42,051 nucleotides of DNA, from positions 1-42,051 of the forward strand of contig NZ_VSFC01000029.1 of NCBI RefSeq assembly GCF_008084905.1, in the 5' to 3' direction. The notes below the pieces were generated by a model. The model did no database searches. It saw only the letters and a program-made list of their open reading frames with translations, and was not told where the DNA came from. Positions 7,201-32,179 of the stretch are shown in pieces. The first letter of the stretch is position 1, and the number at the start of each line of letters is the position of its first letter. The DNA comes from Xanthomarina maritima (GTDB lineage: Bacteria > Bacteroidota > Bacteroidia > Flavobacteriales > Flavobacteriaceae). The position numbers and the translations under genes were made by a program.

Positions 7201-10200
7201 TAACTTCTTCAATATTTCCATCACTAATTTCTCTATATAAAGTCATTATAGTATTTGGATATTCAGGATATCCAATATCAGTATCTCGTAAGGTTCCAGA
7301 ATAATTAATAGCTTTAATAATATGAATTCTCGATTCAGCTACAAATTTAAACCATACATCACCATCGTTTATTCCATCACAACTCATTGTTTCTGGCGAT
7401 GGAGTTGCTCCAATAAATGAGACATTTGATATTAATTGATCACATGTTTCACTTGAGTTTATAGGTGCAACTATAGCATTCGAAATATCATTATTTCGTA
7501 TAAACTCAAATGGACCTGACCAATAGCTTTGATTGTCAGTGCCACAAATGGCTCTAACAAAATACTCATACGAGGCTGCATTTGGATTACTGAAATCCAC
7601 ATCTGTTAGAGTGTAAAAATTGTTAGAAACAACAGTTCCAGATTGAGGTATGGTACCATTTTCAAAAGGTTGTATTGCTACTTCCCATTGAGTTTCAGTT
7701 CCTCCTGGTGTCCATGAAATGGTATTTGTATCATTTATAGTTAAGTCTGTAGGTTGTGGACAAGCTATTGCTCCACAAACTGCGGTGCCTGTATAGTAAG
7801 TTGTTCTAGGAATTAAACCAATAGGACTTGTGAAAACAGAAACACCTTGATCATTTAGAATTTCAAACTGGAAATTTTCATATTGTGATGCAGCCCAACC
7901 TGAAGTATGGAAATAAACTGAAAATTGAACTCCTGAACATAAGAAAATTGGGAATTGAGCACCACTTACGTTGCCGTTAAATCCAATAGACTGTGCTACT
8001 TGATTGTTTTGTGTTATTTCTAATGAACCTAGAGCAGCATCACTAGTTAAAACAAAAGTATATTGGCATAAATTTTCAAAGCTACATGGTGTTAAAACTT
8101 CAACTGGACCTGTCCAAGTGCTTTCTCCATTACAAACAGCTCTAACATAGATGTCGTACATAGTAGAGGAGGTGAGTCCAGTTATTAAAAATGGGTTTGT
8201 AGAAGCATTATATAAATAATTAGGGTCTGTATCTCCTACAGGAGCAGGTGTTCCTGAAGGTTGTACAGAAATTTCCCAAGCTGTTTCTGCACCATTGATA
8301 TCCCAACCAACTTGAACTTGAGTATCTGTAAGTCCTGTTAATGATATGTTTGTTGGAGGAGGACAATTAGGGATATCTTCAATATTTACATTGTCTATTG
8401 CTAAAGTCTGTCCTCTATATGGACCTGTACTAGGGAAGAATGGTACTCTAAAAGCAATATTAATATCGCCAGTTAGACCATCTGGGAAATTAATTATTTT
8501 AACCAAATACTCATCATTATTAAGTACTACAGGATCATCATCAGAGTCGTATAAAACAGTTGTAAATTGATCTAAACTAGTGCCATTAGTTGAGAGTAAT
8601 ACTTCTAAATCTTCTGTAAAAAAGCTATCGTTTACTCTATAGTAATATCTTAAACGTTGATTTTCTGTAATGGTTATAGTTGGCGAGATTAGCCAATCTT
8701 CGTTTTGTCCATTTGTCCCTGTAAACATAGCTGCAGTTTGATCTCCTTCATACGGATAAAATGCGCTATCTAATTCCCAGAAACGTAAATCATGATTATT
8801 ATTTACAACCATCCAACAATCTTGAGTGCTAGAGTCTGAGTTAAACGTTTCTACAAAAGGTGTCGAGTAAGGAGTACATGGTGTTCTAAATGTAACAGGA
8901 CCTACCCATTCACTTTCTTCTGTACCACAATTAGCCATAACATAAAACTCATATTCGGTGTCTGGAGATAATCCTGTCGCTGAGTAATTGCTGGCTGTAA
9001 CAGCTTCACCATTACCAGTTGGTACTCCAGATCCAGCTGTTTGTACTACGATATCCCAATCTGTTTCTTGGTAACCTAGAGTCCATGATAGTTCTGCACT
9101 ATTAACAGTAACAGAATTAACCGTTAAATCTGAAGGGTTAGGGCAAGCTGGTGCATCTGTGATACTAAAATCATCGATACTTAACAATGAATACCCTTCA
9201 GCCACATTAAATTCAGGAGGAATTCTAAGTGCAATATAGACGGTTCCTGTACCATTAATAATGATGCTTCTTTCTTGATATTCTGGATTATTAAATATTT
9301 CCAGAGGGCTGATTACTGAAAAACTTCCTAAACTTGTATTTGTTGTAGACATCAACACTTCTAAACCAAATCTAGGAAAAGCAGTAAAGAATGTAAAATC
9401 TGCTCTGTATTTAAATTTAATTTCTTTTGTATTGCCATCAAGGTTTATTGCTGGAGATATTAAATAATCATTATAACTAGTAGCTGGTTGAAAAGCTGAA
9501 GTTTGCATAAATGCATGTTCATCATCAATCATCCATTTAGTACCATCTCCATTTCCATCTGTGATTTTCCAGCAAAACTTTTGAGTATTTGGATCAGCTT
9601 CATTAAAGCTTTCATAAAAAGGGGTATCATAAGATTCACAAAGGGTAGTAAAAGCAACTGGACCAATCCAATCGCTTTGATCATCAGTATCGCAATAAGC
9701 ACGAACATAATACTCATATCTGTGTCCAGATTCTAAACCTGTTGCTATATGAGGAAAATTGCTAGTTGTTAAAATTCCACTTCCTGTTGGAACACCAGAA
9801 TTTAAATCTTGAATAGCTACTTCCCATTGTGTTTCTATATCTCCTGCTGTCCAAAGAAACCAAGCTGAATTGGTAGTTATTTGTAAAGCTAAAGGGTTTA
9901 ATGGGTCAGGACATGTCGGTTTGTCTTCTATAAAAACATCATCTATAGAGAATCTAGAAGCCGTTTCGGTTGAGTTAGGTTCAACTATCCAAGCAATATT
10001 TACATCGCCAGTTATATTTTCTGGAATATCAACTATAATTTCTGTAAAACTAGTACTGTTAGTTTGTGTTTGTGGTAATAAAACAGTTGTAAAATCATCT
10101 AGTCCAATACCTGTTGTTGATAATTTTAAGGAATAGGTTGATACCCCTTGAGTAGCTCTTTGTTTATAACGTACACGTTTAGGTGTGCCATCAAAGTTTA

Positions 10201-12076
10201 TTCTAGGGGATACATAATAATCATTATTAACATTACGACTATCTGCAGTCCAAAGTGTAGCATATCCAGCTAAAAATCCCCAAGTAACATTATCTCTATT
10301 AACATCAATAGTCGTCCAGCAAGGTTCAGGATTTTCATTTGTTGCCGTATTAAAATCTGTTGAATAAGGTACTCCAAAAGTAGAACATTGTGTAGTGAAT
10401 GTACTTGGTAGACTCCAAATACCAGGTGCTCCGTTACATACAGATCTTACATAAGCATCGTAAGTTGTAGAGGTTGTTAAACCCGTAACTACATTTCCAG
10501 AATTGGAATTAGTAGGGGTGCCTAAACCTGTAGGTTCACCTGCACCTGTTGGAACAACTGCATATTCCCATGAATCTGCAAAACCACCATTATTATCCCA
10601 TGAAAGACTTACACTAGAATCTGTTAAACTATTATAAACAATTTCTCCAGGAGGTGCACATGTTGGACTAGAAATTACAAGTTCAAAACAAATACCAGCT
10701 CCAGAATTGTGTTCAGAAGATAATACAATAACATATGTTTGACCAGCTTGAACTACAAGGTTGGAGATTGTGCGAGGTGCAAATTCTTCAACGGTATTAA
10801 CACCTGCAATACAGTTAACACCTACATCATCACAGCTTTCGTAAACTAAAAGAGATGTTTGGTTATTGTAACAATTATTGGTTCCACCACCAGTTACAAC
10901 GGCAGTTGTTGTTGTTAAAGTAAGAAGACCATCTTCGGTAGGTGTATAAGTTAAAAAGACTTTATCTCCATTTAAATAGTTTCTTCCAGGAAAACCTCCA
11001 CTAATACAATTAGTACCTTCTGTAGTATATGTCTCATTTGGATTGGCCCAGTTTTGTAGATTATCAACTAAAACATATGGGTTAGTTGATATATCTGGAA
11101 TTACTATAGGTTCATCACAAGAAAGTCCGTATTTTAATGTTTCAAAGGTGTAAGGACCAGTGAAGTCACTTTGTGTGTCGTTATCACAAATAGCAGCTAT
11201 ATAGATGTCAAACTCTGTTTGTTCATCAAGGTTTACTAATGTATAGCTTGTTCCTACAACAGGAATTCCACTATCTGCTGGTGTACCACCAGAAGGTAAT
11301 ATTTGGATTTCAAAATTAGTTGCTGTAGGGTGTGTCCAAGTTACCTCGGCTGAATCTACTGTTATATTATCTATTATTACAGAGTCACTATCAATTTCTG
11401 TACAACCTTCTAATACGGCAACTTCATCTACAAACCATTCGTCTCCTGAAGGAGAGGCTCCATTTTGTGTATTAACTGCAACAAAAGCTAGATAGATATT
11501 AAAACCAACTGGGATTGATGATGGAATTTCTACAACTTTTTTTTCGTATTCTGTTTGTAATCCTAAATTTAAATTTGTCTCTGTATAAGACTGCAAAACA
11601 ATATTAAAACCATTAATGTCTGGTTGTGCTGCAGTTGAAATACGAATCTGGTATTGAGCACCATTATCAATGGCACTTGCTTGTTTTGTGTAGAAGTGGA
11701 TTTCACCGTTTTCTGGAACAGAAATTTGTGGTGTTACTAAAAAGTATTGTGCAGTGTTTCCACTACCAATATTATCTGCACTTGGGTTAATGGATGTTCC
11801 CTGTGTTCCTAAATAACCATCTGGTGTAGAACTCCATTCAGAGGTTCCTATGCCATTTCCAAATAATGTCCAAGAACTTGGAATTCCTGTGTCGAATGTT
11901 TCGTTTATTTGGGCATACCCCTTGTTAGAAATCATTAAAATTATAGCTAAAGAAGCTACAAAATAAAATATTCTTTTTTTGATGCTTTTTTTTGGAGCAG
12001 TTGAATTAAACTCATTTAAATTTCTTGTAGAAACTAGATAAGTTTTAGCTACATTATTTTGTAACGTATTTCTCAT
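4211..12076 (-). CDS. Giant multidomain T9SS type B sorting-domain surface protein (adhesin-like)
   Basis: A 2,621-residue secreted protein. The frame extends to a TTG at 12082, but the ATG at 12076 (MRNTLQNN) is the better start; the signal peptide has a long charged n-region and ends near residue 56 (NKGYAQ). Visible modules are four MAM/choice-of-anchor-J-like domains (first right after the signal peptide, others near 565, 810 and 1065), six fibronectin III domains (near 225, 475, 718, 975, 1238 and 1437), PPC-like segments (about 320-470 and 1530-1675), an Ig-like domain (about 1925-2005), five 88-residue repeats (about 2012-2447) and a C-terminal gliding_CHU_C-type sorting domain (last 87 residues: RGISPDGNGKNDTFDL ... 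GTYYYSI). Type B domains direct T9SS export with a PorP/SprF partner, encoded 30 bp downstream. Likely an adhesin or matrix protein; no catalytic site recognised. A conserved motif lies 71 bp upstream. Confidence 0.95.
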   Translation of the reverse strand: MRNTLQNNVAKTYLVSTRNLNEFNSTAPKKSIKKRIFYFVASLAIILMISNKGYAQINETFDTGIPSSWTLFGNGIGTSEWSSTPDGYLGTQGTSINPSADNIGSGNTAQYFLVTPQISVPENGEIHFYTKQASAIDNGAQYQIRISTAAQPDINGFNIVLQSYTETNLNLGLQTEYEKKVVEIPSSIPVGFNIYLAFVAVNTQNGASPSGDEWFVDEVAVLEGCTEIDSDSVIIDNITVDSAEVTWTHPTATNFEIQILPSGGTPADSGIPVVGTSYTLVNLDEQTEFDIYIAAICDNDTQSDFTGPYTFETLKYGLSCDEPIVIPDISTNPYVLVDNLQNWANPNETYTTEGTNCISGGFPGRNYLNGDKVFLTYTPTEDGLLTLTTTTAVVTGGGTNNCYNNQTSLLVYESCDDVGVNCIAGVNTVEEFAPRTISNLVVQAGQTYVIVLSSEHNSGAGICFELVISSPTCAPPGEIVYNSLTDSSVSLSWDNNGGFADSWEYAVVPTGAGEPTGLGTPTNSNSGNVVTGLTTSTTYDAYVRSVCNGAPGIWSLPSTFTTQCSTFGVPYSTDFNTATNENPEPCWTTIDVNRDNVTWGFLAGYATLWTADSRNVNNDYYVSPRINFDGTPKRVRYKQRATQGVSTYSLKLSTTGIGLDDFTTVLLPQTQTNSTSFTEIIVDIPENITGDVNIAWIVEPNSTETASRFSIDDVFIEDKPTCPDPLNPLALQITTNSAWFLWTAGDIETQWEVAIQDLNSGVPTGSGILTTSNFPHIATGLESGHRYEYYVRAYCDTDDQSDWIGPVAFTTLCESYDTPFYESFNEADPNTQKFCWKITDGNGDGTKWMIDDEHAFMQTSAFQPATSYNDYLISPAINLDGNTKEIKFKYRADFTFFTAFPRFGLEVLMSTTNTSLGSFSVISPLEIFNNPEYQERSIIINGTGTVYIALRIPPEFNVAEGYSLLSIDDFSITDAPACPNPSDLTVNSVTVNSAELSWTLGYQETDWDIVVQTAGSGVPTGNGEAVTASNYSATGLSPDTEYEFYVMANCGTEESEWVGPVTFRTPCTPYSTPFVETFNSDSSTQDCWMVVNNNHDLRFWELDSAFYPYEGDQTAAMFTGTNGQNEDWLISPTITITENQRLRYYYRVNDSFFTEDLEVLLSTNGTSLDQFTTVLYDSDDDPVVLNNDEYLVKIINFPDGLTGDINIAFRVPFFPSTGPYRGQTLAIDNVNIEDIPNCPPPTNISLTGLTDTQVQVGWDINGAETAWEISVQPSGTPAPVGDTDPNYLYNASTNPFLITGLTSSTMYDIYVRAVCNGESTWTGPVEVLTPCSFENLCQYTFVLTSDAALGSLEITQNNQVAQSIGFNGNVSGAQFPIFLCSGVQFSVYFHTSGWAASQYENFQFEILNDQGVSVFTSPIGLIPRTTYYTGTAVCGAIACPQPTDLTINDTNTISWTPGGTETQWEVAIQPFENGTIPQSGTVVSNNFYTLTDVDFSNPNAASYEYFVRAICGTDNQSYWSGPFEFIRNNDISNAIVAPINSSETCDQLISNVSFIGATPSPETMSCDGINDGDVWFKFVAESRIHIIKAINYSGTLRDTDIGYPEYPNTIMTLYREISDGNIEEVICSYDNIITAMYSSELIVGDTYFIRFTKTEPATTEYTLELCITTPENFCNVETENGGFEQPVVPGLSGLNSMITSRVVPGWRQNFDNRNQILVWESLNAPGISSFEGSQCAQILEDEEMIIDPNDPEVYGIFREFDTSESTVMDYNFAYLGRFDGNALQLFAGPPGGPYTLVREQIANTFEWIVVSGQYQVPNNQDLTRFIFRASGSDVIGNVIDAVSFNSNNDIITSSSEVDCTDPTIIVEANGTGTWIPDPNNPGEVIIDDVTSNNTSISGFLQSGVYTFTWQTRYCENTVEFTYNGISDMPTVETPVAYCLNATAQPLSATPTGSYSLIWYTQPVGGTGSTTAPTPDTSVVGDTSYYVANADTNGCESPRAEIIVTVNDAIIPELSFSYETTCIVVSDNPIPTLSTGFETGGIFSSATLTVDSTTGEIDLSSATVGIHDVLYTFDGDSETCLIAETYTATIEFTAASTPVTTFDYGTEPFCLITSTTVLPNLATGFTTGGIFSSTTLTVDASSGEIDLTSATTGMHDVIYTIDADSTICMEASTYTTSIEVLETIVPVTMFSYAEDFYCTSSGNVFPDLATNFTSGGVFSAESGLTINATTGEINFSTSTAGSYTISYTITEDLTTCLEASVSTFIMNIAASVTPVTMFDYGTTPFCLLSGDSVLPNLATGFTTGGTFSSTTLTVAATTGEVDLTSATAGTHDVIYTYDADASNCIESGTYTASIEIIQVTSTISEFSYTEDLYCEDSPNILPNLAPGFTTGGTFSAESGLSINASTGEINISSSNIGNYTIVYEITEDLTNCVEGSMSTFDMTILDTIEVSIDGECNQSDYLLTASPVGNSFDPNDVTYTWMDANGNVVGNDSEVFNVTGYANQNQNVTVPAQFTVTITFGSCSVTASFTTDILSCGNIPRGISPDGNGKNDTFDLTGFGVTHIEIFNRYGKTVFKYNGNYTNQWHGQSDKGKTLPDGTYYYSIKKEDGSSVTGWVFINGPK
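4735..6040 (-). repeat. Five coding repeats of about 264 bp, arranged A-A-B-A-B
   Basis: Inside the giant surface-protein gene, five units of about 88 codons begin near 6035, 5780, 5512, 5248 and 4985. Each has the frame LxTGFxTGGxFSS...TLTV...GEIDL...YT...C. Type A units begin FDYGT(E/T)PFCL (the first is a divergent A), and type B units begin FSYxEDxYC with an extra residue in FSAESGL. The last four alternate A-B-A-B with a period of about 527 bp, so a two-domain block appears to have been duplicated. The boundaries are approximate. Confidence 0.85.
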
Positions 12077-12146
12077 TGTCAAACAATTTCAGTTAGTAAT
12101 TTTAATGGATAAATATATAGAGAATAATTCTATATATATAAATTTA

Positions 12147-20644: not shown

Positions 20645-21196
20645 ATGTTTCAGAGTGATATCATTGAAAAATGCAAACAAAACAATCGTCAGGCACAAAT
20701 GCAGTTATACAACCAGTACTGCCATGGAATGTATATTGTGGCAAAACGATTTGTGAAACACGATGCAGAAGCAGAAGATATAGTACAGGATGCTTTTATT
20801 AAAGCATTTTCTAAACTGCATCAATTTCAAGCTGAAGTAACTTTTGGAGCTTGGTTAAAACGTATTGTAATCAACACCAGTTTAGATGCTTTAAAATCTA
20901 AGAGCCAACCTATGGTTGAGTTAGAAGATGTGCACTTAAAAGTAGTCGACACAAGGGATGAGGACAAATGGTTAGTAGACGATAAGGTAACAATAGACGA
21001 CGTTAAAGAAGCTATTAGCAGCCTGTCAGAAAAATATAGATATGTCCTCATGCTTTATTTAATGGAAGGCTACGACCATCAGGAAATTTCAGACATTCTA
21101 AATATTTCTGAAGTAGCTTCTAGAACACAACTTTACAGAGGTAAATTACAATTGCAGGAACTATTAAAACTTAGAAAAAATGGCACAAGATATTAG
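20645..21196 (+). CDS. ECF-type RNA polymerase sigma factor
   Basis: A 183-residue sigma-70 family protein of the extracytoplasmic-function class. Region 2 (about 10-80) contains the AEDIVQDAFIKAFSKLHQF core helix and the FGAWLKRIVINTSLD segment. Region 4 (about 125-178) contains LSEKYRYVLMLYLMEGYDHQEISDILNISEVASRTQLYRGK, with the HTH near its end. The gene overlaps the next one by 17 bp. The neighbour is a short single-pass membrane protein typical of anti-sigma factors, so this sigma is probably held at the membrane until an envelope signal arrives. The 173-bp divergent spacer with the DUF2911 gene shows no clear housekeeping -7 box, so autoregulation is possible. Confidence 0.95.
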   Translation: MFQSDIIEKCKQNNRQAQMQLYNQYCHGMYIVAKRFVKHDAEAEDIVQDAFIKAFSKLHQFQAEVTFGAWLKRIVINTSLDALKSKSQPMVELEDVHLKVVDTRDEDKWLVDDKVTIDDVKEAISSLSEKYRYVLMLYLMEGYDHQEISDILNISEVASRTQLYRGKLQLQELLKLRKNGTRY

Positions 21197-21758
21197 AGAT
21201 TTATTTAAAAAAGACAATGAAAACTTTAGAGAAAAAATGTCTGAAGGACATGATTTACGTTTTCTAAATAAATTAGATAAAAAACTACCAGAGCATGGCA
21301 AACCTTCTTGGTCTTGGTTGCAAATAGCAGCTAGTTTGGTGTTGCTGTTGGGCTTTAGTTTTGGGGTATATAAATATTTTGAAAAGCCTATGGAAGTCCA
21401 AGTAGCAGATACTCCAATAGAATTTGAAGAGATACCAACAAAATCCTTAAGAGACATATCGCCAGATTTAAAAAAGGTAGAAGATTACTATTTGGCAAAC
21501 ATCAATTTAGAATTGTCTAAAGTAAAATTAACTCCAGATAATAAAGAACTTATCAATGGGTATATGAGTCAGTTAGAGGCTTTAAATAAAGAATACAAAC
21601 GTATCTCTTTAGAACTAACTAATTCAGGACCAAACGAGTTAACAGTTAATGCATTAATTACCAATTTAAAGTTTCGTTTAAACCTAATGTATCGCTTAAA
21701 AGAACAATTGCAAACCTTGCAAACAACAGATTCAATCAATAAACGAACAAACGTATAA
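21180..21758 (+). CDS. Probable single-pass anti-sigma factor
   Basis: A 192-residue protein whose start overlaps the sigma gene by 17 bp in another frame. The N-terminal 40 residues are charged and cytoplasmic (DIRDLFKKDNENFREKMSEG), followed by one transmembrane helix (about 46-66, LQIAASLVLLLGFSFGVYKYF) and a periplasmic helical part rich in Leu and Lys. No zinc-binding HxxxCxxC motif is present, so it is not a classical ZAS anti-sigma. Assignment rests on gene order and topology rather than a named domain. Confidence 0.85.
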   Translation: MAQDIRDLFKKDNENFREKMSEGHDLRFLNKLDKKLPEHGKPSWSWLQIAASLVLLLGFSFGVYKYFEKPMEVQVADTPIEFEEIPTKSLRDISPDLKKVEDYYLANINLELSKVKLTPDNKELINGYMSQLEALNKEYKRISLELTNSGPNELTVNALITNLKFRLNLMYRLKEQLQTLQTTDSINKRTNV

Positions 21759-21770
21759 AACAATCATAAA

Positions 21771-23213
21771 ATGAAACACATAATAATTACAGGATTATTT
21801 TTTCTTAGTACTTTAAGTCTTTGGGCTCAAGAAAAATTAGATAAAATCTCACAATCCATAAGGGTTACAGATCAAGTAACTTTGAACTTAAATACCAATT
21901 ATACCAATATTGAAATAGATACTTGGAATAAAGACATTATAGAGATAGAAGCCTATGTAGAAAGCAGGTCTTTAAGTAAAGAAGAGCTTAAGAAATATTT
22001 GGATGCCTGGAAAATTCAAGTGGAAGGATCAAATAACTTGGTGTCTATCACTTCAGGAACAGACAATCAATCTTGGGCAAATAACAACAATTTGTTCGAT
22101 GAACAATCTTTTAATGCTTTACAAGATTTAGAATTTGAATTGGCAAATATGCCTATAGTGGATAATCTTTTAGAGTCTTTACATTTGGAAGACATGCCAA
22201 AAATGCCAAAAATGCCAAAATTACCTGAATTACCGGAAGGCATGCATAATTCAGATTTTGATTTTGAAAAATTCAAAAAAGAAGGTGATGCCTATATGGA
22301 AAGGTGGAGTAGAGAGTATAGTGAAACCTATGGGGAAGTCTATGCAAAGCAAATGGAAGCTTGGGCAAAAGAAGTTGAATCTAGTGAAGAAATGAAAGAA
22401 TTTCAAAAGCGTATAGAAGTTTGGGGAGAAAAATTCGGAAAGGAATTTGGCGAAAAATTTGGTAAAGACATGGAAGCTTGGGGTGAACAATTTGGAAAGC
22501 AGATGGAATCCTGGGGTGATAATTTTGGAAAGCAAATGGAAGAGCAAGCCAAATTAATAGAAGAGCAACATAAAGTAAAAGAAGAAATGCAACGAGGATT
22601 ATTTGAATCTCCTTCTGAATTAAAGAATCAAAAAGTAAATAAAACCATAAAGATTAAAATGCCAAAAGGTGCCAAACTAAAAGTGAATGTGCGTTATGGC
22701 GAATTGAAAATGGCTTCTTTAATACAGAATTTAAAAGCAAATGTATCACATACCACTTTAATAGCAAACAGCATTGATGGAAGCCAGACTTCCATCAATG
22801 CATCATATTCACCTGTAACTATTTCTAATTGGTTGATGGGAGAATTAAAATTAAACTATGTAGAAAAAGCACATATAAGTACTGTAAATAGATTGGTTTT
22901 AAATGCCAATTCATCCAATGTAAATATTGGAACCTTGCAAGGGAATGCTATTATAGATGGTAGTTTTGGAGACTTAATTATAGAAAATATTACTAACTCC
23001 TTTAATAATTTAAATATCGTACTTGAAAATAGTAAAGCTCGATTAAGCCTTCCAAATGTTGATTATAATTTACAGTATAAAGGGAAGTACTCTAATTTGA
23101 AGCATCCTACCAAAACATCTAATGAGGTCAATACATCCTTCTCATCAGGTAATTTATCAAGCAACAAAACCATTGTTGTAAATGCTAAGTACAGTCAGGT
23201 AGAATTACATTAA
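21771..23213 (+). CDS. Exported DUF4097-like protein with an 11-residue helical repeat insert
   Basis: A 480-residue protein with signal peptide MKHIIITGLFFLSTLSLWAQ. Beta-rich segments at about 25-100 and 290-480 (repeated LNANSSNVNIG, DGSFGDLIIENI patterns) resemble the DUF4097 putative-adhesin beta-roll that often accompanies ECF/anti-sigma genes. Between them lies a long charged insert: a KMPKMPKMPKLPELPEG stretch (about 143-158) and then amphipathic helix with near 11-residue repeats (EVWGEKFGKEF, EAWGEQFGKQM, ESWGDNFGKQM; about 213-256). It starts 12 bp after the anti-sigma gene and is the third gene of that operon, so it is probably a periplasmic or outer-membrane effector or sensor of the regulon. 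It has no T9SS sorting domain. Specific function unknown. Confidence 0.85.
   Translation: MKHIIITGLFFLSTLSLWAQEKLDKISQSIRVTDQVTLNLNTNYTNIEIDTWNKDIIEIEAYVESRSLSKEELKKYLDAWKIQVEGSNNLVSITSGTDNQSWANNNNLFDEQSFNALQDLEFELANMPIVDNLLESLHLEDMPKMPKMPKLPELPEGMHNSDFDFEKFKKEGDAYMERWSREYSETYGEVYAKQMEAWAKEVESSEEMKEFQKRIEVWGEKFGKEFGEKFGKDMEAWGEQFGKQMESWGDNFGKQMEEQAKLIEEQHKVKEEMQRGLFESPSELKNQKVNKTIKIKMPKGAKLKVNVRYGELKMASLIQNLKANVSHTTLIANSIDGSQTSINASYSPVTISNWLMGELKLNYVEKAHISTVNRLVLNANSSNVNIGTLQGNAIIDGSFGDLIIENITNSFNNLNIVLENSKARLSLPNVDYNLQYKGKYSNLKHPTKTSNEVNTSFSSGNLSSNKTIVVNAKYSQVELH
22771..22801. repeat. Perfect 13-bp inverted repeat inside a coding region
   Basis: GCATTGATGGAAG (22771-22783) and CTTCCATCAATGC (22789-22801) form a perfect 13-bp stem with a 5-nt loop, within codons reading SIDGSQTSINA in the DUF4097-like gene. 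No T run follows on the plus strand. Confidence 0.85.
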
Positions 23214-23251: not shown

Positions 23252-24028
23252 TTATTTATTTACTATAATCTTGTAAGTTGCCTGCTCACCTAAGGTTGAA
23301 GTTAGGGTCATTAAATACAAGCCATTTATTAATTTATTTGAAACATCTAGACTTAAGCCATTGTCAGATAATATAACCTCTTTATCTTCAAACACTAATT
23401 TTCCTTCAAGAGTATAAAAACTAATTCCACTTAACTCTGTCATAATCGAGGTTTTTATGTGTAAAACACCTTTTACTGGATTTGGATAGATGCTAAATAT
23501 ATCACTAAAAGACCTATATTCAACAGCTAATGTTTCTAATAGGATATTATTAGCAGTTCCTAAAATATTTTGTCCTAATGTATTTGTAACTCCTGTTCCA
23601 TTTGGATTTCCATTTTCAAATAAATCATGTGTAATCATAACTCCTTCACTAACACTTATTACTTCAAAAGAAACTGTAAACACAGTGGTTGTTCCAGTAA
23701 TATCAGAAAAAGCTCCAGCTGCATATCTAATAATTCCCGGAGTGGAGGTATCATTTGCTAATGGAACATTTAGTACGCTGTTATTAGGTGTCAAACTATT
23801 AATTTGAATAATGGCCGGATTATAATTTAGATATATTTGAACACCTCTATAAGCTGTTGTACCAGCTACAGCTTCAATGGTATAATTGAAAGTTTGGCCA
23901 ATAGATAAAGGAGGGGTTTCATCTACTGAAGCTACTAAATTGATATTTTGAGCCATTCCAAGTGTACTTCCTAAAACAAAGGTTGAAAGTATAAGTACTT
24001 TTGAAATGTGTGTGAGTATATGTTTCAT
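23252..24028 (-). CDS. Cohesin-domain protein with T9SS type A sorting domain (predicted surface scaffold)
   Basis: About 258 residues. Three ATGs stand in a row (24034, 24031, 24028); the last gives the most usual signal peptide, ending near STLGMAQ. The next roughly 145 residues read as a type I-like cohesin beta-sandwich: GQTFNYTIEA, then YRGVQIYLNYNPAIIQINSL (the conserved G-x-Q-x-x-x-x-Y-x-P strand pair), then ITGTTTVFTVSFEVIS. A hydrophilic link leads to a type A T9SS sorting domain of about 75 residues (FSIYPNPVKGVLHIKTS, GISFYTLEGKLVF, LINGLYLMTL, YKIIVNK). It would therefore be exported by the T9SS and fixed to the cell surface with its cohesin exposed. It lies 12 bp downstream (6 bp from the first ATG) of a dockerin-bearing gene, the natural binding partner. 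Cohesin assignment is by pattern and context, with no alignment run. Confidence 0.85.
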   Translation of the reverse strand: MKHILTHISKVLILSTFVLGSTLGMAQNINLVASVDETPPLSIGQTFNYTIEAVAGTTAYRGVQIYLNYNPAIIQINSLTPNNSVLNVPLANDTSTPGIIRYAAGAFSDITGTTTVFTVSFEVISVSEGVMITHDLFENGNPNGTGVTNTLGQNILGTANNILLETLAVEYRSFSDIFSIYPNPVKGVLHIKTSIMTELSGISFYTLEGKLVFEDKEVILSDNGLSLDVSNKLINGLYLMTLTSTLGEQATYKIIVNK

Positions 24029-24040
24029 CATCATTATTAT

Positions 24041-27000
24041 TTAATCGTTTTGTGTTTCTCCATTTAAACTAAAATTCCCAGATAATAGACCAAAATCAAA
24101 AATATTTATGTTTTGATTATGGTCAAAGTCTGCTGAAGGATCAAATCCTATATCACCAGAATTTAGTCCAAAAGTACCCGATAAGATACCAAAATCGAAT
24201 ATATTAATTGTATTGTCGTTATTAACATCTCCAGCTAAAAGCTCTGTGATAGTTTCAGAAGCATTTGAAGTTAAATTAACTGTTAAAACGCGTTGTAAAT
24301 ACATAGGATGTTTGACTAGAATTTTATACTGACTTTGACTAACTGTCGTACTTAAAGTTATTTGACCAGCATTATTACTGGTTTCGGTTAAGCTATATGC
24401 AGGCGTAAGTAAATCATTTACATCGTATAAAATCACGGAGTAAGCTCCACTATAATCTGAACGTCCTTGCAAACTAACTTGCAAATCTATTGTGAATTCT
24501 GGTATGATAACACTTACTGTTTGCATGCAAGATAAAGAGGTGTTTTCAGAAACATCAGTAACAGTCCATGTAATGGTTGTATCTCCTAAAGGATAGGGGT
24601 CATTTAGTTCTAAAGCGTCAGATCGAACAGCATTATAAGTTAAAGTAGTTGCGCAATTATCTGTTGCTGTAGGATTTAAAATAGATACAATGGTTTCGGT
24701 TGTTCCAACAGAAACATGTTCGATGATATCTATAGGGCAGGTTAAAATTGGAGCTTCATTATCGTTTAAAACGGTCCATTGAAAGCTTGTTTCAACATCT
24801 AAACTCCCTGGTTTTGATAAGGTAACGGTTACTTGGTAAACACCATCATTATTTGGCCCACCAGAAATAGCAGTTTCATCAATACTACCAAAAATTAATC
24901 CATTGGTTGGTTCAATATCTATGCCAAGAGGTTGCCCACTTATGGCATAAACTAAATTGTCATTTGGGTTACCACCAGAGCCTACTGCAGAAAAATCAGA
25001 TATTTCAAATTCACAATCTGTTCTATTTGCAATGGGTTCAATTATTAATTCTGGATATTGAAGACCTAATATTTCAATGGCATTTACCATTGGGTTTTGT
25101 ATAAATTGAAAAAATTCTATTTCTAAATTTCCATCTGTAACGGTGACATTATTTTGAATCATTCCAGCAATGCGATGTCCAAATTCTGCTGAAGCATCTA
25201 GTTTTTCAATGCGTCTTTCGTTTTCAATATTAACACTAAAAATGCGTTGACCAGGTAATCTAGTTCCATTATATAGGTTAGCAAAATACATATTAACAAT
25301 ATAATCGCCATTTGGTACAGGGATGGTATATATCATTGGATATTCAAAATTATTACTATTACCGTTTTGACTACGCATTACTTCATAATATTCTAATGGT
25401 GTTAGGTAGTCTGGAATAGACTCGTCTTCCAAGGCTGAAAGTCCTACAATAACATAAGGCGAACCTGCAGACACACTGTAGAAAGAGCCGCTAGCCGTTG
25501 TGTTGTCTTCCCAGTCTGGACCACCATCAGAGGCCGTGATTGTTGGTCCACCTGCATTAATTCTTACTATAGGTTTATAAATATCCGTTAGCTGTCCAGT
25601 TAAACTTATTAGGTTTAAGGGTGAATTATTTCCTGAATGAATGATTTCTAAATTAGCTTCTTTAATTCCTATCTGGTTGTCAGAATCAAAATCTATAGCT
25701 AAATCATAGCTATCTCCTGGTCCTATGCTTATTGGAAAAATAGCTTCGGTCGAGAAAAGAGAGGCATTAATTCCTGTAAAATTAGCTGCAGTTACTTCTA
25801 TTGAACTATCTGTAGGGCCACCTTCATTAGATAATCTAATATATTTTCTACGAATATTATTTTGTACTGGAGTTAATCCAAAATCTAAATGTGTACTTTG
25901 TGTATTTAGGATGCCATCTTGATTTTCAGTTACTTCTATAAAATCCCAGGTTGCTGAAAATGTATCAGTTCCACTAGCTGTTCTTCCAGTAGAAATAAGT
26001 GAAATAGCTAGCCCTTTATTATCAGAATCATCTAAAAAACTAAGAGGTAAAATAATAGGAGCCCCTAATAAGTTTAATGTCATCCCATCATCTATAGAAT
26101 AAAATGGCTGTGCTGTATTGGTTGCTGGATCTATGGATGCATATAGGTCTAACGAACTCGAGTTTAAAATATTTGGTATATCATATTTAGTATCACTAAT
26201 AACAACACCATCTTGTTCGAGTAACACTTGTAAGCCATAAATAGCATCTTGATTACTAATCCCATTCATGATTACTATTTTTAAATAATTATCCTGATCT
26301 CCATTTCCAAAGCTAATGCCATAAGACTGGAAATCTACTGGTGTTTGCTGAGCACCACTAGATCCAAAATAAGGAGATTCTATTTTCGAATGTATGGTAA
26401 AGGGATTAGAATTGCTATCAACTTGAACGCCAAATTGAAATCCGTAATCCTGAGTATTTAAATTCCCTAATGCATCACCACCAGAGACTTCATCGACGGT
26501 TGCTTTTCCGGCAGCACCGCCAAAAGACATATTATCTATGTCAAATTGAGTTAAATAATCTGTAGATCCATTTGGATCAATCATTAATCCCGTAAACCCT
26601 AAACCAAACATACCAGTACCTGGATTATTATTCCAAAACGGATAATCAATTGGTAGGTTGGTAGTTGTCCCATTATCAGAATCTAATGCAAAGGCGTCAA
26701 AAACATCTAAAATACCATCATTATCATCATCTGTATCATTTAAATCGGAAATATTATCTTGATCATTATCGGTTGGCTTGCTGCTTTGCGAACAAATATT
26801 AGTGCCATTATCAATTTCATCTTGATTGCTATACCCATCCCCATCATTATCAGCATTGGCATCATATCCAATGTCTCCAGGAAGTAAACAATTGATATCA
26901 GTAGGCTCAAAAATGGTTATATTATTAGACCCATAGGTAGCAGCCCAAACGGTTCCAGGAAATATATCTAAATCTCCTTGAGCAGTGACATCTAATGGAA

Positions 27001-28615
27001 TACTTCCAAAGCCATTAAAAGTTGTTTCGCTGGATACAACAGCATCGCCAGAAGTATTTAGAATATATCTATTTATATCTCCACTAAATGAAGCGGTTAA
27101 AATATTGCCTTGCATGACACCATTAAAATTAGAAGCTGTATATTCTGTTATTCCATTTGTAGAAGAGTTTACAACAGCTAAAATATTATTTTTTGTACTT
27201 GCAATTGGTTCATCTAATAAGTATTCACCTAGCCTTGGTTGCTCTGGGAAATCATCCATAGAAAAAGAGGCATGAAAATAACCTGAAACTCCAATTAAAA
27301 GGTCTTCTAGATCATGAGATTCTATAAGAGACCAAGTAGAACCTGTATCTTCATAAACTTTTACTTGTGCTTTTGAAGGAAAGGCTAAGATGGGATTTGG
27401 ATGTCCTCCATAATAGGTTCCGTTTGTATCAGTAGTAAGGCCTATATAGTGTAATGGGTCTCCATGTAAGTTACTTCCATTTTCATTAAATTCATTTGTT
27501 ATGTAATGGTTTGCAGGATCGTAAGTTATGGTACTTTCATCTCCTAAGAAGAGATCTGTAGCTTTGTCATAAATCTTAGGGAAACCACCCCAAAGCCCAT
27601 TAGGGCCATTATCTGAGCTATAAATTTTCCCTCCTTCTGTAACTACAACATCATAAGCATTTCTATATCCTGGAGAAAATATTTGAATTGGTCCACCTGT
27701 TTCTGGAAAAGCTTGGTTTAAACTATTATTCCCTCCAAAAGGGTCTCCTATATCAATAGTGGCATGATACAAAGGGTGTGATGCCTCATAAGGGAATTCT
27801 GGATGTGTATTGTCAATATCTGCTCTTGAAGGGTCATTCAATGTTGGTAAATCATATACAAATGTTGTACCAGATCTTAAATCTGTATGGACAGGCATGC
27901 TTTCTAATTGTGTTAAATTTACAATTAGTATGGATGCTGAAAGAAAATATTCAGGTGTTCCTGCAAAGTTATTACTAGGAGCACCTTTATTTGTTTGTCC
28001 TCCTTGTGCTACTAGAAGGTAAGTTATACCATCTCTTTCAAACATATCTAAACCATTAATGGCATGATTTTCTTCACATCTAGGTAATCCACGAATTAAA
28101 TCTAGTTTATCCCAACTGCTTCCATTCCAAGTAAGTTTAGAAAGCATACTAGAATTTGTATCTAAATTAGAGTCACTTCCAGAGCCTCCACCACCAATCA
28201 AATAATCTGAAGAGGTTACATAAAGAATAGGGAATTCAGCCGTGCCTGCTGTCATAATTCCTGTAATTAGACGTTGTTGACTCATATTTAGAGAGCCATC
28301 GTCAAAATGATTTGGGATACCTTGTCTTATGGCTGTTATTTGTTCGGATGCGATTACTGTGTAAACACCATCACCCATTGGTGAAAGATCACGCTCTATG
28401 GTGTATGCCCAGATAACACCATTTTGTTGAGAAACATATAAGCGTCCGTCGGGACCAAATTCTAATGAGGTAGGATTTGCTACAGTTTCATTTATTAAAC
28501 CTGAAGAACCAAAACTAATAGTTTGAGAATGTAGTGTAATAGGTAGGGTTAATAAACAAAAAAGTGCAAAATAGACCCATGCATTTTTAATTTTTATTAT
28601 AGACGATAAAGGCAT
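24041..28615 (-). CDS. Secreted sugar-dehydrogenase-like/malectin protein with C-terminal dockerin
   Basis: 1,524 residues from the ATG at 28615 (MPLSSIIKIKNAW...LHSQ signal peptide); an in-frame ATG at 28660 would only add a charged tail. Numbered from 28660, domains are a glucose/sorbosone-dehydrogenase-like beta-propeller (about 45-590; TSLEFGPDGRLYVSQQNG, FSPGYRNAYDVVV, GGKIYSSDNG), an Asp-rich TSP3-like segment (about 605-665), a LamG-like region (about 670-920), an ASH-like beta domain (about 930-1030), a malectin domain (about 1037-1205; IVRINAGG, ASDGGPDWE), an Ig/HYR pair (about 1206-1395), a beta linker, and a type I dockerin (last 63 residues). The dockerin has two calcium loops, DVNNDNTINIFD and DFDHNQNINIFD. 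No T9SS sorting domain is present. PQQ-dependent sugar oxidation is possible but the catalytic residues were not verified; malectin and LamG-like parts suggest glycan binding. First gene of a two-gene unit with the cohesin protein. Confidence 0.9.
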   Translation of the reverse strand: MPLSSIIKIKNAWVYFALFCLLTLPITLHSQTISFGSSGLINETVANPTSLEFGPDGRLYVSQQNGVIWAYTIERDLSPMGDGVYTVIASEQITAIRQGIPNHFDDGSLNMSQQRLITGIMTAGTAEFPILYVTSSDYLIGGGGSGSDSNLDTNSSMLSKLTWNGSSWDKLDLIRGLPRCEENHAINGLDMFERDGITYLLVAQGGQTNKGAPSNNFAGTPEYFLSASILIVNLTQLESMPVHTDLRSGTTFVYDLPTLNDPSRADIDNTHPEFPYEASHPLYHATIDIGDPFGGNNSLNQAFPETGGPIQIFSPGYRNAYDVVVTEGGKIYSSDNGPNGLWGGFPKIYDKATDLFLGDESTITYDPANHYITNEFNENGSNLHGDPLHYIGLTTDTNGTYYGGHPNPILAFPSKAQVKVYEDTGSTWSLIESHDLEDLLIGVSGYFHASFSMDDFPEQPRLGEYLLDEPIASTKNNILAVVNSSTNGITEYTASNFNGVMQGNILTASFSGDINRYILNTSGDAVVSSETTFNGFGSIPLDVTAQGDLDIFPGTVWAATYGSNNITIFEPTDINCLLPGDIGYDANADNDGDGYSNQDEIDNGTNICSQSSKPTDNDQDNISDLNDTDDDNDGILDVFDAFALDSDNGTTTNLPIDYPFWNNNPGTGMFGLGFTGLMIDPNGSTDYLTQFDIDNMSFGGAAGKATVDEVSGGDALGNLNTQDYGFQFGVQVDSNSNPFTIHSKIESPYFGSSGAQQTPVDFQSYGISFGNGDQDNYLKIVIMNGISNQDAIYGLQVLLEQDGVVISDTKYDIPNILNSSSLDLYASIDPATNTAQPFYSIDDGMTLNLLGAPIILPLSFLDDSDNKGLAISLISTGRTASGTDTFSATWDFIEVTENQDGILNTQSTHLDFGLTPVQNNIRRKYIRLSNEGGPTDSSIEVTAANFTGINASLFSTEAIFPISIGPGDSYDLAIDFDSDNQIGIKEANLEIIHSGNNSPLNLISLTGQLTDIYKPIVRINAGGPTITASDGGPDWEDNTTASGSFYSVSAGSPYVIVGLSALEDESIPDYLTPLEYYEVMRSQNGNSNNFEYPMIYTIPVPNGDYIVNMYFANLYNGTRLPGQRIFSVNIENERRIEKLDASAEFGHRIAGMIQNNVTVTDGNLEIEFFQFIQNPMVNAIEILGLQYPELIIEPIANRTDCEFEISDFSAVGSGGNPNDNLVYAISGQPLGIDIEPTNGLIFGSIDETAISGGPNNDGVYQVTVTLSKPGSLDVETSFQWTVLNDNEAPILTCPIDIIEHVSVGTTETIVSILNPTATDNCATTLTYNAVRSDALELNDPYPLGDTTITWTVTDVSENTSLSCMQTVSVIIPEFTIDLQVSLQGRSDYSGAYSVILYDVNDLLTPAYSLTETSNNAGQITLSTTVSQSQYKILVKHPMYLQRVLTVNLTSNASETITELLAGDVNNDNTINIFDFGILSGTFGLNSGDIGFDPSADFDHNQNINIFDFGLLSGNFSLNGETQND

Positions 28616-28773
28616 AATTTTAAATTTTCGGTGTTTTGCTATTAATCGAAAAATTAACATTCAATTTAGGAGGAAGAATCTATGGTGAAATTAATAATTT
28701 TTTCTAAAAAGAATGACTTTTAAAATGACTTTTCGTTAAAATGAAAATATATCGGTTATGGAGGTGAATGCAT

Positions 28774-28822: not shown

Positions 28823-31800
28823 TTAATCTTCAATCAACACCCAATCTCCTTTAGAAATTAGAGGCTCTGCTTGTTTGTATTTAAGGGTTTTATTTTCACC
28901 ACTCATGACATGTTTGATGGTAACCTTATCGTTTCTACCAATTTTCGGTTTGTCTCGAACAATGGTTTCAACAACCTCTTGATGACGTTGCGTATTTCCA
29001 GCAGCTCTATTTTGAGCAGAACGCTCGTCAAGATTCGGAATTTCGTCTTTTTGTGTTTTTAATTTTTCCTTTTTTCTAGTTTGTCTGGCTTCTTGAATAG
29101 CACCTGTTTCTTGGGTAGGAAGTTCTCCTTTAAATAAAAAGGATATCACGTCTTTATTCACATGGTCAATCATGTTTTTAAACAACTCGAAAGCTTCAAA
29201 CTTATAGATTAACAACGGGTCTTTTTGTTCGTGAACAGCCAACTGAACCGATTGTTTTAACTCATCCATTTTACGTAAATGAGTTTTCCATGCATCATCT
29301 ATAATGGCTAATGCAATATTCTTTTCAAAATCAGTAATTAACTGTTTTCCTTCAGTTTCATAAGCTTTTTCAAGATCTGTTACTACCTGAATGGTTTTAA
29401 CACCATCTGTAAAGGGAACAACAATACGTTTAAATTTATCACGCTGATTTTCATAAACATTTTTTATAACTGGAAAAGCTATTTCAGCATTTCTAGTCAT
29501 TTTATCTCTATAATGTTTAAAAGCTTCTTTATATACTTTTGATGCAATATCTTGAACAGATAATTTACCAAACTCATCAGCTGTAATAGGAGAACTCATA
29601 GAGAAATAACGAATTAATTCAAATTCAAAATTCTTATAATCGTTTGCTGCTTTGTTTGTTTCTGATATCCCTTCAGAGGTATCGTAAATCATATTCGCTA
29701 AATCCACACGTAAACGTTCACCAAATAAGGCATGGTGACGACGTTTGTATACCACTTCTCGTTGCGAATTCATCACATCATCATACTCTAACAATCTTTT
29801 ACGAATCCCAAAGTTATTTTCTTCAACCTTTTTCTGTGCACGTTCAATAGATTTTGAAATCATGGAATGCTGAATCACTTCCCCTTCTTTCAAGCCCATT
29901 CTGTCCATCATTTTGGCAATTCGTTCGCTACCAAATAAACGCATTAAATTGTCTTCAAGAGACACATAGAATTGAGAGCTTCCTGGATCTCCTTGACGTC
30001 CAGCACGACCACGTAACTGTCTGTCTACACGTCTGGAATCGTGACGTTCTGTCCCAACAATAGCAAGTCCTCCAGCAGCTTTTACCGCGTCACTTAATTT
30101 AATATCTGTTCCACGACCAGCCATATTGGTAGCAATGGTAACCTGTCCAGAATTTCCAGCCTCTGCAACTATCTCTGCTTCTTTTTTGTGTTGTTTCGCA
30201 TTTAATACATTGTGAGATATTTTTCTAATACTAAGCATTTTACCAAGTAACTCAGAAATCTCAACAGAAGTTGTACCAATTAAAACAGGTCTTCCTGCTT
30301 GCGATAAATTTGTTACTTCATCAATAACCGCATTGTATTTTTCACGTTTAGTTTTATAAACCAAATCGTCTCTATCATCACGTGCAATAGGTCTGTTGGT
30401 TGGAATTTCAACCACATCTAATTTGTAGATTTCCCAGAACTCTCCAGCCTCCGTTACAGCAGTACCTGTCATACCAGACAGTTTACGGTACATTCTAAAG
30501 TAATTTTGAAGGGTTACGGTTGCAAAGGTTTGGGTGGCATCTTCAATTTTTACATTTTCTTTGGCTTCAATGGCTTGGTGTAGTCCATCGCTATAACGAC
30601 GCCCATCCATAATACGACCTGTTTGCTCATCCACAATCATAACCTTGTTTTCCATCACCACATACTGAATGTCTTTTTCGAATAAGGCGTAGGCTTTCAG
30701 CAATTGATTTAAAGTATGAATACGTTCAGACTTCACGCCAAAATCTCTGAATAAATCTTCTTTTAAGTTGGCTTCTTCTTCAGAAGATAAATTTTGTGCT
30801 TCAATTTTAGCAATTTCCACACCAATTTCTGGCATCACAAAGAAATCTGGATGGTCTTTCCCAGATAAATAATCAATTCCTTTATCTGAAAGTTCTATCT
30901 GATTGTTTTTCTCTTCAATCACATAGTACAACTCGGCATCTACCTTAGGCATCTCTCTGTTGTTATCTGCCATGTATTGATTCTCGGTTTTCTGAAGTAG
31001 TTGTTTGATACCTTCTTCACTTAAAAACTTAATAAGTGCCTTGTTTTTAGGCATTCCTCTATAAACACGAAGCAATTGAAAACCACCTTCTTTCGTGTCG
31101 CCTTCGGTAATTAATTTTTTAGCTTCGGCTAACACGCCAGTTAAATATTTACGTTGTACAGCAACAATATCTTCAACCTTTGGTTTTAATTCGTTAAACT
31201 CATGTCTGTCTCCTTGTGGGATGGGTCCAGAGATAATTAATGGCGTACGTGCATCATCCACCAATACAGAATCGACCTCATCGACTATGGCATAATGGTG
31301 TGGACGCTGTACCAAATCGTCTGGCGAATGTGCCATATTATCACGTAAATAATCAAAACCAAATTCGTTATTGGTTCCATAGGTAATGTCTGCTAAATAG
31401 GCTTTTTTACGAGCAGCAGAATTTGGTTGATGGTAATCGATACAATCGATACTCAATCCATGGAATTGAAAAATAGGGGCCATCCAAGCGCTATCACGTT
31501 TGGCAAGGTAGTCGTTTACGGTTACTAGGTGAACACCTTTGCCTGCTAAAGCATTTAGATATACCGGCAAGGTTGCTACTAAAGTTTTTCCTTCCCCAGT
31601 TTGCATTTCTGCTATTTTACCTTGATGCATGGCTATACCACCAATAAGTTGTACATCGTAATGTACCATATCCCAAGTAATGGCTTTCCCAGCAGCATCC
31701 CAAGAGTTAGACCAAATGGCTTGATCGTTATCTAAAGTGATATAATCTTTTTCGCCAGAAAGTTCTCTGTCGTAAGTACTCGCAGTAACTGTTATTTCGG

Positions 31801-32179
31801 AGTTGTTTACAAATCGTTTAGCAGTTTCTTTAACCACAGCAAAAGCTTCAGGTAGAATATCATTTAAAACCCCTTCTGTCACTTCGTAAATGCTGTCTTT
31901 TATGCTGTCTATTTCCTGATAAATTTCTTCACGCTGATCGATGTCTTCCGTAGCTTCAGCTTTTATAAGTAGGGCATCAATTTGTTCGTTATGAGGTTTT
32001 CTTGCTGCTTCAATCTGAGCTTTGAAGATATCTGTTTTAGCTCTTAATTCATCGTGAGAAAGTGCTTCTAAGGCAGCTTCAAACGTTTTAATTTTATCTA
32101 CTATAGGCATGATAGCCTTAACGTCTTGTTTGGATTTATCGCCAACAAATATTTTTAGTACAGAATCTAAAAAAGTCAT
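28823..32179 (-). CDS. secA: Preprotein translocase ATPase SecA
   Basis: A 1,118-residue motor ATPase of the Sec translocase, longer than the roughly 900 residues of E. coli SecA, as usual in Bacteroidota. The Walker A motif MQTGEGKTLVATLP is near residue 190, the DEVDSVLVDDARTPLIISG Walker B region follows at about 300, and ATNMAGRGTDIKL and QLRGRAGRQGDPGSSQFYVSLED lie in the second helicase domain. The C-terminus is a charged linker ending in a short beta segment (KVTIKHVMSGENKTLKYKQ); the Cys-rich zinc finger of E. coli SecA is absent. All T9SS cargo here must first cross the inner membrane through this machine. It has its own terminator and a candidate -7 box. Confidence 0.98.
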   Translation of the reverse strand: MTFLDSVLKIFVGDKSKQDVKAIMPIVDKIKTFEAALEALSHDELRAKTDIFKAQIEAARKPHNEQIDALLIKAEATEDIDQREEIYQEIDSIKDSIYEVTEGVLNDILPEAFAVVKETAKRFVNNSEITVTASTYDRELSGEKDYITLDNDQAIWSNSWDAAGKAITWDMVHYDVQLIGGIAMHQGKIAEMQTGEGKTLVATLPVYLNALAGKGVHLVTVNDYLAKRDSAWMAPIFQFHGLSIDCIDYHQPNSAARKKAYLADITYGTNNEFGFDYLRDNMAHSPDDLVQRPHHYAIVDEVDSVLVDDARTPLIISGPIPQGDRHEFNELKPKVEDIVAVQRKYLTGVLAEAKKLITEGDTKEGGFQLLRVYRGMPKNKALIKFLSEEGIKQLLQKTENQYMADNNREMPKVDAELYYVIEEKNNQIELSDKGIDYLSGKDHPDFFVMPEIGVEIAKIEAQNLSSEEEANLKEDLFRDFGVKSERIHTLNQLLKAYALFEKDIQYVVMENKVMIVDEQTGRIMDGRRYSDGLHQAIEAKENVKIEDATQTFATVTLQNYFRMYRKLSGMTGTAVTEAGEFWEIYKLDVVEIPTNRPIARDDRDDLVYKTKREKYNAVIDEVTNLSQAGRPVLIGTTSVEISELLGKMLSIRKISHNVLNAKQHKKEAEIVAEAGNSGQVTIATNMAGRGTDIKLSDAVKAAGGLAIVGTERHDSRRVDRQLRGRAGRQGDPGSSQFYVSLEDNLMRLFGSERIAKMMDRMGLKEGEVIQHSMISKSIERAQKKVEENNFGIRKRLLEYDDVMNSQREVVYKRRHHALFGERLRVDLANMIYDTSEGISETNKAANDYKNFEFELIRYFSMSSPITADEFGKLSVQDIASKVYKEAFKHYRDKMTRNAEIAFPVIKNVYENQRDKFKRIVVPFTDGVKTIQVVTDLEKAYETEGKQLITDFEKNIALAIIDDAWKTHLRKMDELKQSVQLAVHEQKDPLLIYKFEAFELFKNMIDHVNKDVISFLFKGELPTQETGAIQEARQTRKKEKLKTQKDEIPNLDERSAQNRAAGNTQRHQEVVETIVRDKPKIGRNDKVTIKHVMSGENKTLKYKQAEPLISKGDWVLIED

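Follow-up and report, generated by a model that had tools for sequence, protein, structure and literature searches.

We analyzed a 42,051-nucleotide stretch of Xanthomarina maritima DNA (contig NZ_VSFC01000029.1, positions 1 to 42,051; hereafter the window) in which the gene for a large protein ending in a dockerin module, the passenger, is directly followed by the gene for a small protein that joins a cohesin to the C-terminal sorting domain (CTD) of the type IX secretion system (T9SS). From sequence comparison we consider it reasonably likely that the cohesin-CTD protein is a dedicated one-site adaptor, which would supply T9SS export and anchorage in trans to a passenger without a tag of its own. 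T9SS cargo is described as exported folded and as needing a CTD (PMC9251779), and a signal-peptide-mCherry fusion without a CTD appears as a control in Flavobacterium johnsoniae (PMC10994853). The first-pass annotation of the window had proposed a one-site cohesin anchor with a dockerin passenger, a minimal cellulosome-like display system built on T9SS. Its predicted anchor and passenger are strongly supported by the conserved adjacency of the two genes, by near one-to-one module counts, by the alternation between dockerin and CTD at the passenger's end and by a joint swap of both modules, whereas the term ‘cellulosome-like’ fits poorly because neither an enzyme domain nor a multi-site scaffold was found in the window's genome.

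The passenger gene (24041..28660; this and all features of the pair lie on the minus strand) encodes 1539 aa, comprising a signal peptide (by eye), a propeller-like region, malectin, He_PIG/HYR and the C-terminal dockerin. Both open reading frames (ORFs) lie where the first-pass annotation had placed them, except that 28615, given as the start of the upstream gene, is an internal ATG before the signal peptide and the ORF starts at 28660. The passenger's stop codon (TAA, 24043-24041) and the ATG of the next gene are in frame and separated by 6 nt (24035..24040), which bears out the gap of a few bases claimed earlier. The second gene (23252..24034) encodes 260 aa, with an N-terminal signal peptide (23945..24034, by eye), a Cohesin domain (23519..23944; PF00963, 25.6 bits against a cut-off of 24.1, a narrow margin, together with cohesin profiles) and a type A T9SS sorting domain (23261..23491; Por_Secre_tail, 42 bits against a Pfam cut-off of 27, and TIGR04183, 31.9 bits), the very combination that had been read from the sequence. 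The small protein therefore has the features of T9SS type A cargo, namely a signal peptide, a C-terminal CTD and a T9SS in the genome, where we detected SprA, a T9SS translocon gene, and 56 CTD matches at E <= 0.001. The passenger had no CTD match by Pfam, NCBIfam or the CTD profile built here, and thus lacks the CTD of its own expected of T9SS cargo; inspection of its N-terminus by eye revealed neither a second export signal nor a lipobox cysteine.

Both calcium loops claimed for the end of the upstream gene, DVNNDNTINIFD and DFDHNQNINIFD, were present at the passenger's C-terminus. They belong to a dockerin module (24044..24244, aa 1473-1539) made up of two calcium-loop/helix repeats and a conserved tail, GETQND, as delimited by profiles and alignment. 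Positions 1, 3, 5, 9 and 12 of the loops, which we take to be the calcium oxygen ligands of type I dockerins, are D or N in both repeats of the window protein (DNDND and DDNND) and D, N or S in the other eight aligned rows, except for one F at position 9. The repeats of the window protein are identical at positions 10-11 (IF/IF) and 17-18 (SG/SG), presumably the recognition positions of type I dockerins, and are less so in some relatives. Of the two profile searches that the first-pass annotation had proposed, Cohesin passed its cut-off as given above, while Dockerin_1 (PF00404; cut-off 22.9) fell below it in the whole passenger (16.1 bits) and narrowly exceeded it when the 68-aa domain was scanned alone (23.2 bits). 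All nine aligned dockerin rows, the window row included, matched Dockerin_1 at E <= 0.1. A profile of the dockerin relatives gave 16 matches in the PDB, mainly cellulosomal dockerins or proteins bearing them (best 2y3n_B, E 6e-8), two of the 16 being labelled serine protease. With the cohesin profile, all seven PDB matches were labelled scaffoldin or cohesin (best whole-sequence E 5.6e-5); the aligned stretch was short and no single stretch was significant alone. The small protein alone, searched by phmmer against the PDB, gave no match.

We searched a sample of 397 genomes of the family with the window's cohesin part and with the passenger's propeller part (aa 47-615, 26816..28522, the region common to the compared homologues). 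The propeller part gave 61 matches in 41 genomes and the cohesin part matched 10 genomes, each of which was among the 41. A short fragment (L111) was dropped and the remaining 60 propeller ORFs were classified by their C-termini with profiles built here: 28 ended in a CTD, four in a CTD-like tail (Pfam 31.6, 15.6 and 14.0 bits and no match), 11 in a dockerin and two in DOC2, a second docking module, and 15 were cut or interrupted (12 by contig or stretch ends, two by N and one by a frame shift). A dockerin and a CTD were not found on the same ORF in any of the 60. In the main dockerin clade, each of the eight passenger ORFs was directly followed by a cohesin-CTD gene, and so was a ninth dockerin tail in locus L024, whose ORF is cut at the contig start; the survey for conserved adjacency suggested by the first-pass annotation thus yielded nine dockerin tails, in eight genomes, that have the expected neighbor. 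None of the 28 CTD-tailed propeller ORFs had a gene for a cohesin or for REC2, the partner of DOC2, next downstream, one had some CTD-bearing ORF in that position, and one, the paralogue in L024, lay just downstream of the preceding pair's cohesin gene. Fisher's exact test on 8/8 versus 0/28 gave 3e-8, a value that serves as a guide only, the genomes being related. Three divergent dockerin passengers (G289, G231 and G191) lie downstream of CTD proteins of 2,673, 3,071 and 2,998 aa, respectively, with cohesin-like N-termini (Pfam cohesin 29.4, 20.7 and 18.1 bits against the cut-off of 24.1); taken together, these N-termini matched the window's cohesin group with an hhalign probability of 96. 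A scan of genome contigs for relatives returned three loci that matched only query residues within 155-260 (cohesin end and CTD).

The exchange of one tail for another was also seen within single loci and clades. In L024 (G098), two tandem dockerin/cohesin pairs are accompanied by a CTD-tailed third paralogue of the propeller protein, 1,277 aa long. In G107 and G306 the passengers end in DOC2, a different pair of calcium-loop-like repeats, and the next gene encodes REC2 plus a CTD. In a midpoint-rooted propeller tree these two fall inside the dockerin clade, next to G385 (support 0.83) and G230 (0.99), and the locus was judged to be the same from three shared genes beyond the small gene. At this one locus DOC2 and REC2 jointly took the place of dockerin and cohesin. 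Outside the CTD, the REC2 members scanned had no match in Pfam, NCBIfam or the PDB, and no homology between REC2 and cohesin was found by hhalign (probability 0.5 and 0.04). DOC2 gave a weak 18-column match to the dockerin (hhalign probability 46) and otherwise only sub-threshold matches, to FimA in two proteins (E 0.017 and 0.08) and to one PDB entry (E 0.79).

REC2 had 23 matches in 14 of the 397 family genomes. We read 16 loci (14 new regions plus L059 and L060), leaving out seven fragmentary or weak matches, and in all 16 the gene directly upstream of REC2 ended in DOC2 (in L173 and L174 this gene is cut by the contig start). REC2 carried a CTD in 15 of the 16; in L178 the frame ends at the point where a CTD would start. 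A 17th pair is located in the window's own genome (L193:1969-7877, equal to G000:C17:68468-74376), where a 1,692-aa frame with LRR and Ig domains and a DOC2 end is followed by a 278-aa REC2-CTD frame. The passengers that carry DOC2 are of diverse kinds (LRR/fn3, M43 peptidase, laminin-G and short unknown proteins). DOC2 and REC2 may bind each other. It could be argued that the dockerin-like tail is a calcium-stabilised cap only and that the cohesin-CTD neighbor is an independent surface protein, the two having been kept together by operon inheritance. Many non-cellulosomal dockerin-like modules are not known to have a partner, and two proteins of G711 combine a dockerin match with a CTD of their own, both in keeping with a cap; a cap is nevertheless hard to reconcile with the mutual exclusion of dockerin and CTD among the propeller ORFs, the joint replacement by DOC2 and REC2, and the finding that the ten cohesin genomes are all passenger genomes, and we regard it as improbable.

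Whole-genome scans of the window's genome (G000) revealed a single cohesin next to a single credible dockerin; chance adjacency of the two modules is not a sensible explanation. A second PF00404 match (G000:C8) was taken as chance, with an E of 0.192, coverage of less than half of the profile and an 828-aa frame that also has a CTD match. We extended the dockerin:cohesin census to 14 genomes picked for a cohesin, a docking tail or genus membership. The ratio was 1:1 in G000, G261, G345, G168, G385 and G230 (the last after dropping a cohesin match of E 0.0875 with four internal stops), 1:1 also in the divergent G289, 2:2 in G098, and 0:0 in G107, G306 and G038. These counts bear on the possibility of a minimal cellulosome, in which the cohesin would be a scaffold that recruits several dockerin-bearing enzymes. 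The cohesin and dockerin families are indeed the cellulosomal ones, a double cohesin occurs in G255 and multi-cohesin clusters occur in G749 and G711, but the window's genome has a single cohesin and a single credible dockerin, and neither Pfam nor NCBIfam detected a glycoside hydrolase catalytic domain in the passenger or the cohesin protein, which makes a minimal cellulosome very improbable. The sole NCBIfam match with a glycosidase name covered the malectin part only and was far below its cut-off. A cellulosome proper was rejected on the census, which in the window's genome did not reveal a multi-cohesin scaffold with several dockerin enzymes.

We propose that the passenger and the cohesin protein would each enter the periplasm by Sec, given the signal peptides recognized by eye, and that the passenger's dockerin would bind the small protein's cohesin; this step probably involves calcium and is probably periplasmic. 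The T9SS would then recognise the CTD of the small protein and move the folded pair across the outer membrane, after which the pair may stay attached to, or be released at, the cell surface. Binding, the calcium need, periplasmic assembly, co-export and surface location are all predictions from the two gene products. With a signal peptide but neither a CTD nor a lipobox cysteine in the passenger, the pair probably forms in the periplasm and exits via the T9SS, and because the passenger is without an export tag it would probably cross the outer membrane only when carried by the cohesin protein. Alternatively, the passenger may be exported separately, in vesicles or by an unknown path, and the modules may bind only afterwards, so that the small protein would be an anchor and not a carrier. 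Clostridial cellulosomes assemble extracellularly. For one extracellular protein of Bacteroidetes that lacks a CTD, export in outer-membrane vesicles has been suggested (PMC6247017). We consider separate export unlikely, since the start of the passenger offers no second export signal or lipobox cysteine to the eye, and since in relatives the CTD and the docking module interchange on the same passenger, a pattern most simply explained by a shared function that includes export. Read most economically, the docking pair would take the place of the passenger's own CTD.

Several observations weigh against this adaptor reading or narrow its basis. The window's own cohesin, used as the query, favors syntenic relatives in the 10-genome overlap, and the flanks of CTD-tailed ORFs were read mostly downstream, the whole-genome cohesin search covering what remained in close relatives. 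Because the sampled genomes are related, the counts are not independent, and the independent events are few: the pair itself, one DOC2/REC2 swap and one CTD-tailed paralogue in the same array. The cohesin calls of G231 and G191 are weak singly: the whole-genome cohesin profile missed both, and G191 scored only E 0.67 when compared by itself. Scanned as single domains, five of ten relatives exceeded the Pfam cut-off, four fell below it and one (L021) had no match. The counts were not always 1:1, being 1:3 in G255, 2:0 in G231 and 1:0 in G191. The second dockerin-tailed protein of G231 (L125, G231:C22:86045) had no docking partner in the short flank examined. In G255, an orphan protein with two cohesins and a CTD was observed (L026:8076-9287), with no dockerin gene in the 18 kb examined. 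The distances of dockerins and cohesins were correlated (r 0.64), not above the value for cohesin and CTD within one protein (0.62), and this comparison was not discriminating. The cohesin fold is a nine-strand jelly-roll sandwich; a single-sequence fold of the in-frame dockerin-cohesin stretch (mean pLDDT 39.4) was uninformative on the sandwich and on an interface. Finally, G711, which is outside the family, has two ORFs that each combine a dockerin match with a CTD (L194:12834-19499), one of them a 1,460-aa protein that also has cohesins and the other its neighbor. Dockerin and CTD can coexist in G711, and the either/or rule is not universal.

In a class sample of 380 genomes, the cohesin profile matched five (the window's own included) and REC2 matched two (the window's own and G763); both modules are uncommon in the class. 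G749 and G711, both from another family, show what may be a larger assembly. In G749, three consecutive genes lie at L195:3-16226. The first encodes a dockerin-tailed kelch/malectin protein of at least 1,361 aa, the second a 2,172-aa protein whose two ends match cohesin and dockerin, respectively, by the profiles built here (in Pfam, Dockerin_1 at 17.3 bits and no cohesin), and the third an 1,856-aa CTD protein that bears two cohesins. By its layout this trio looks like a passenger, an adaptor and an anchor, that is, a T9SS-anchored scaffold chain. We incline slightly towards the broader proposal that in-trans T9SS tagging is general in the Bacteroidota, such that CTD-less passengers with a C-terminal calcium docking module would be exported in a pre-formed complex with a small CTD adaptor encoded next to them. 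The scheme would have at least two forms, namely cohesin-dockerin and the uncatalogued REC2-DOC2, whose receptors have no detectable homology and which would be interchangeable with each other or with a direct CTD.

Among open-licence papers we found neither a flavobacterial T9SS dockerin-cohesin pair nor a REC2/DOC2 scheme, and no description of piggyback transport for the T9SS. Peer 2009, on non-cellulosomal modules, may include some of these domains. The pair shares with the type I/II cohesin-dockerin system of clostridial cellulosomes the module families and a two-loop dockerin with similar repeats, whereas the Gram-positive anchoring, multi-cohesin scaffolds and enzymes of the latter were not seen here. 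The small protein (Pfam, TIGR04183) and the 28 passenger homologues with their own CTD resemble T9SS type A cargo, from which the window's passenger differs by having no CTD. The PorP-like partner of type B T9SS cargo is an outer-membrane protein. Type B cargo with such a partner is likewise a two-component surface attachment tied to the T9SS, but there the cargo has its own CTD (PMC9143113). As in Tat hitchhiker and peroxisomal piggyback transport, an untagged protein would cross a membrane bound to a tagged one, although those routes use other membranes and machines (PMC9251779). The closest published case that we found is a predicted cohesin-CTD scaffoldin of Candidatus Stygibacter (Cloacimonadota; PMC8542988), in which cohesins are likewise predicted on a protein with a surface-attachment CTD, with dockerin-tailed partners. 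That scaffoldin is a single 3,755-aa protein with tandem cohesins and CBMs that would serve several enzymes (PMC8542988), unlike the one cohesin and one non-enzymatic neighboring passenger found here, together with evidence that the pair replaces the passenger's CTD. A rumen study reported that cohesins and dockerins were not found, consistent with other Bacteroidetes genomes (PMC5831590), a cockroach-gut study reported dockerins from some cells of Bacteroidota, its only cohesin being in a Firmicute (PMC10266427), and an isopod metagenome contained 835 dockerin and 65 cohesin modules (PMC7071664).

Since T9SS cargo is held to require a CTD of its own (PMC9251779), searching genomes for CTDs is the obvious way to list T9SS surface proteins. 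If docking pairs tag in trans, such lists miss a class of large surface proteins, and the T9SS would be shown to carry protein complexes. Cohesin and dockerin modules would also have a non-cellulosomal job in Bacteroidetes, and the dockerin-cohesin pair could serve as a ready-made modular display tool.

The remainder of the passenger agreed in part with the propeller/malectin description given to it earlier. The Malectin domain (25097..25570, aa 1031-1188) was confirmed by Pfam at 66.5 bits, while the propeller label comes from the first-pass annotation and from sub-threshold matches to GSDH and SSL_N (Pfam) and ScyD/ScyE (NCBIfam), next to the profile built here. A HYR domain (24509..24763, aa 1300-1384) scored 34.3 bits in Pfam, and the He_PIG match was below threshold. 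In a promoter and terminator scan, promoter-like sites were at chance level and terminator-like sites numbered five against a mean of 2.7. The flanks of the pair (window 20645-23213 and 28823-32179) contain an ECF sigma factor, two genes without a Pfam match and a secA-like gene (by eye); the same genes border the pair across several further genera, which makes the locus syntenic. In several relatives an additional gene of about 230 aa, M23-peptidase-like by eye, adjoins the small gene. Elsewhere in the window (4211-12082), we observed an fn3/Cleaved_Adhesin protein of 2,623 aa that bears a CHU_C type IX secretion signal domain.

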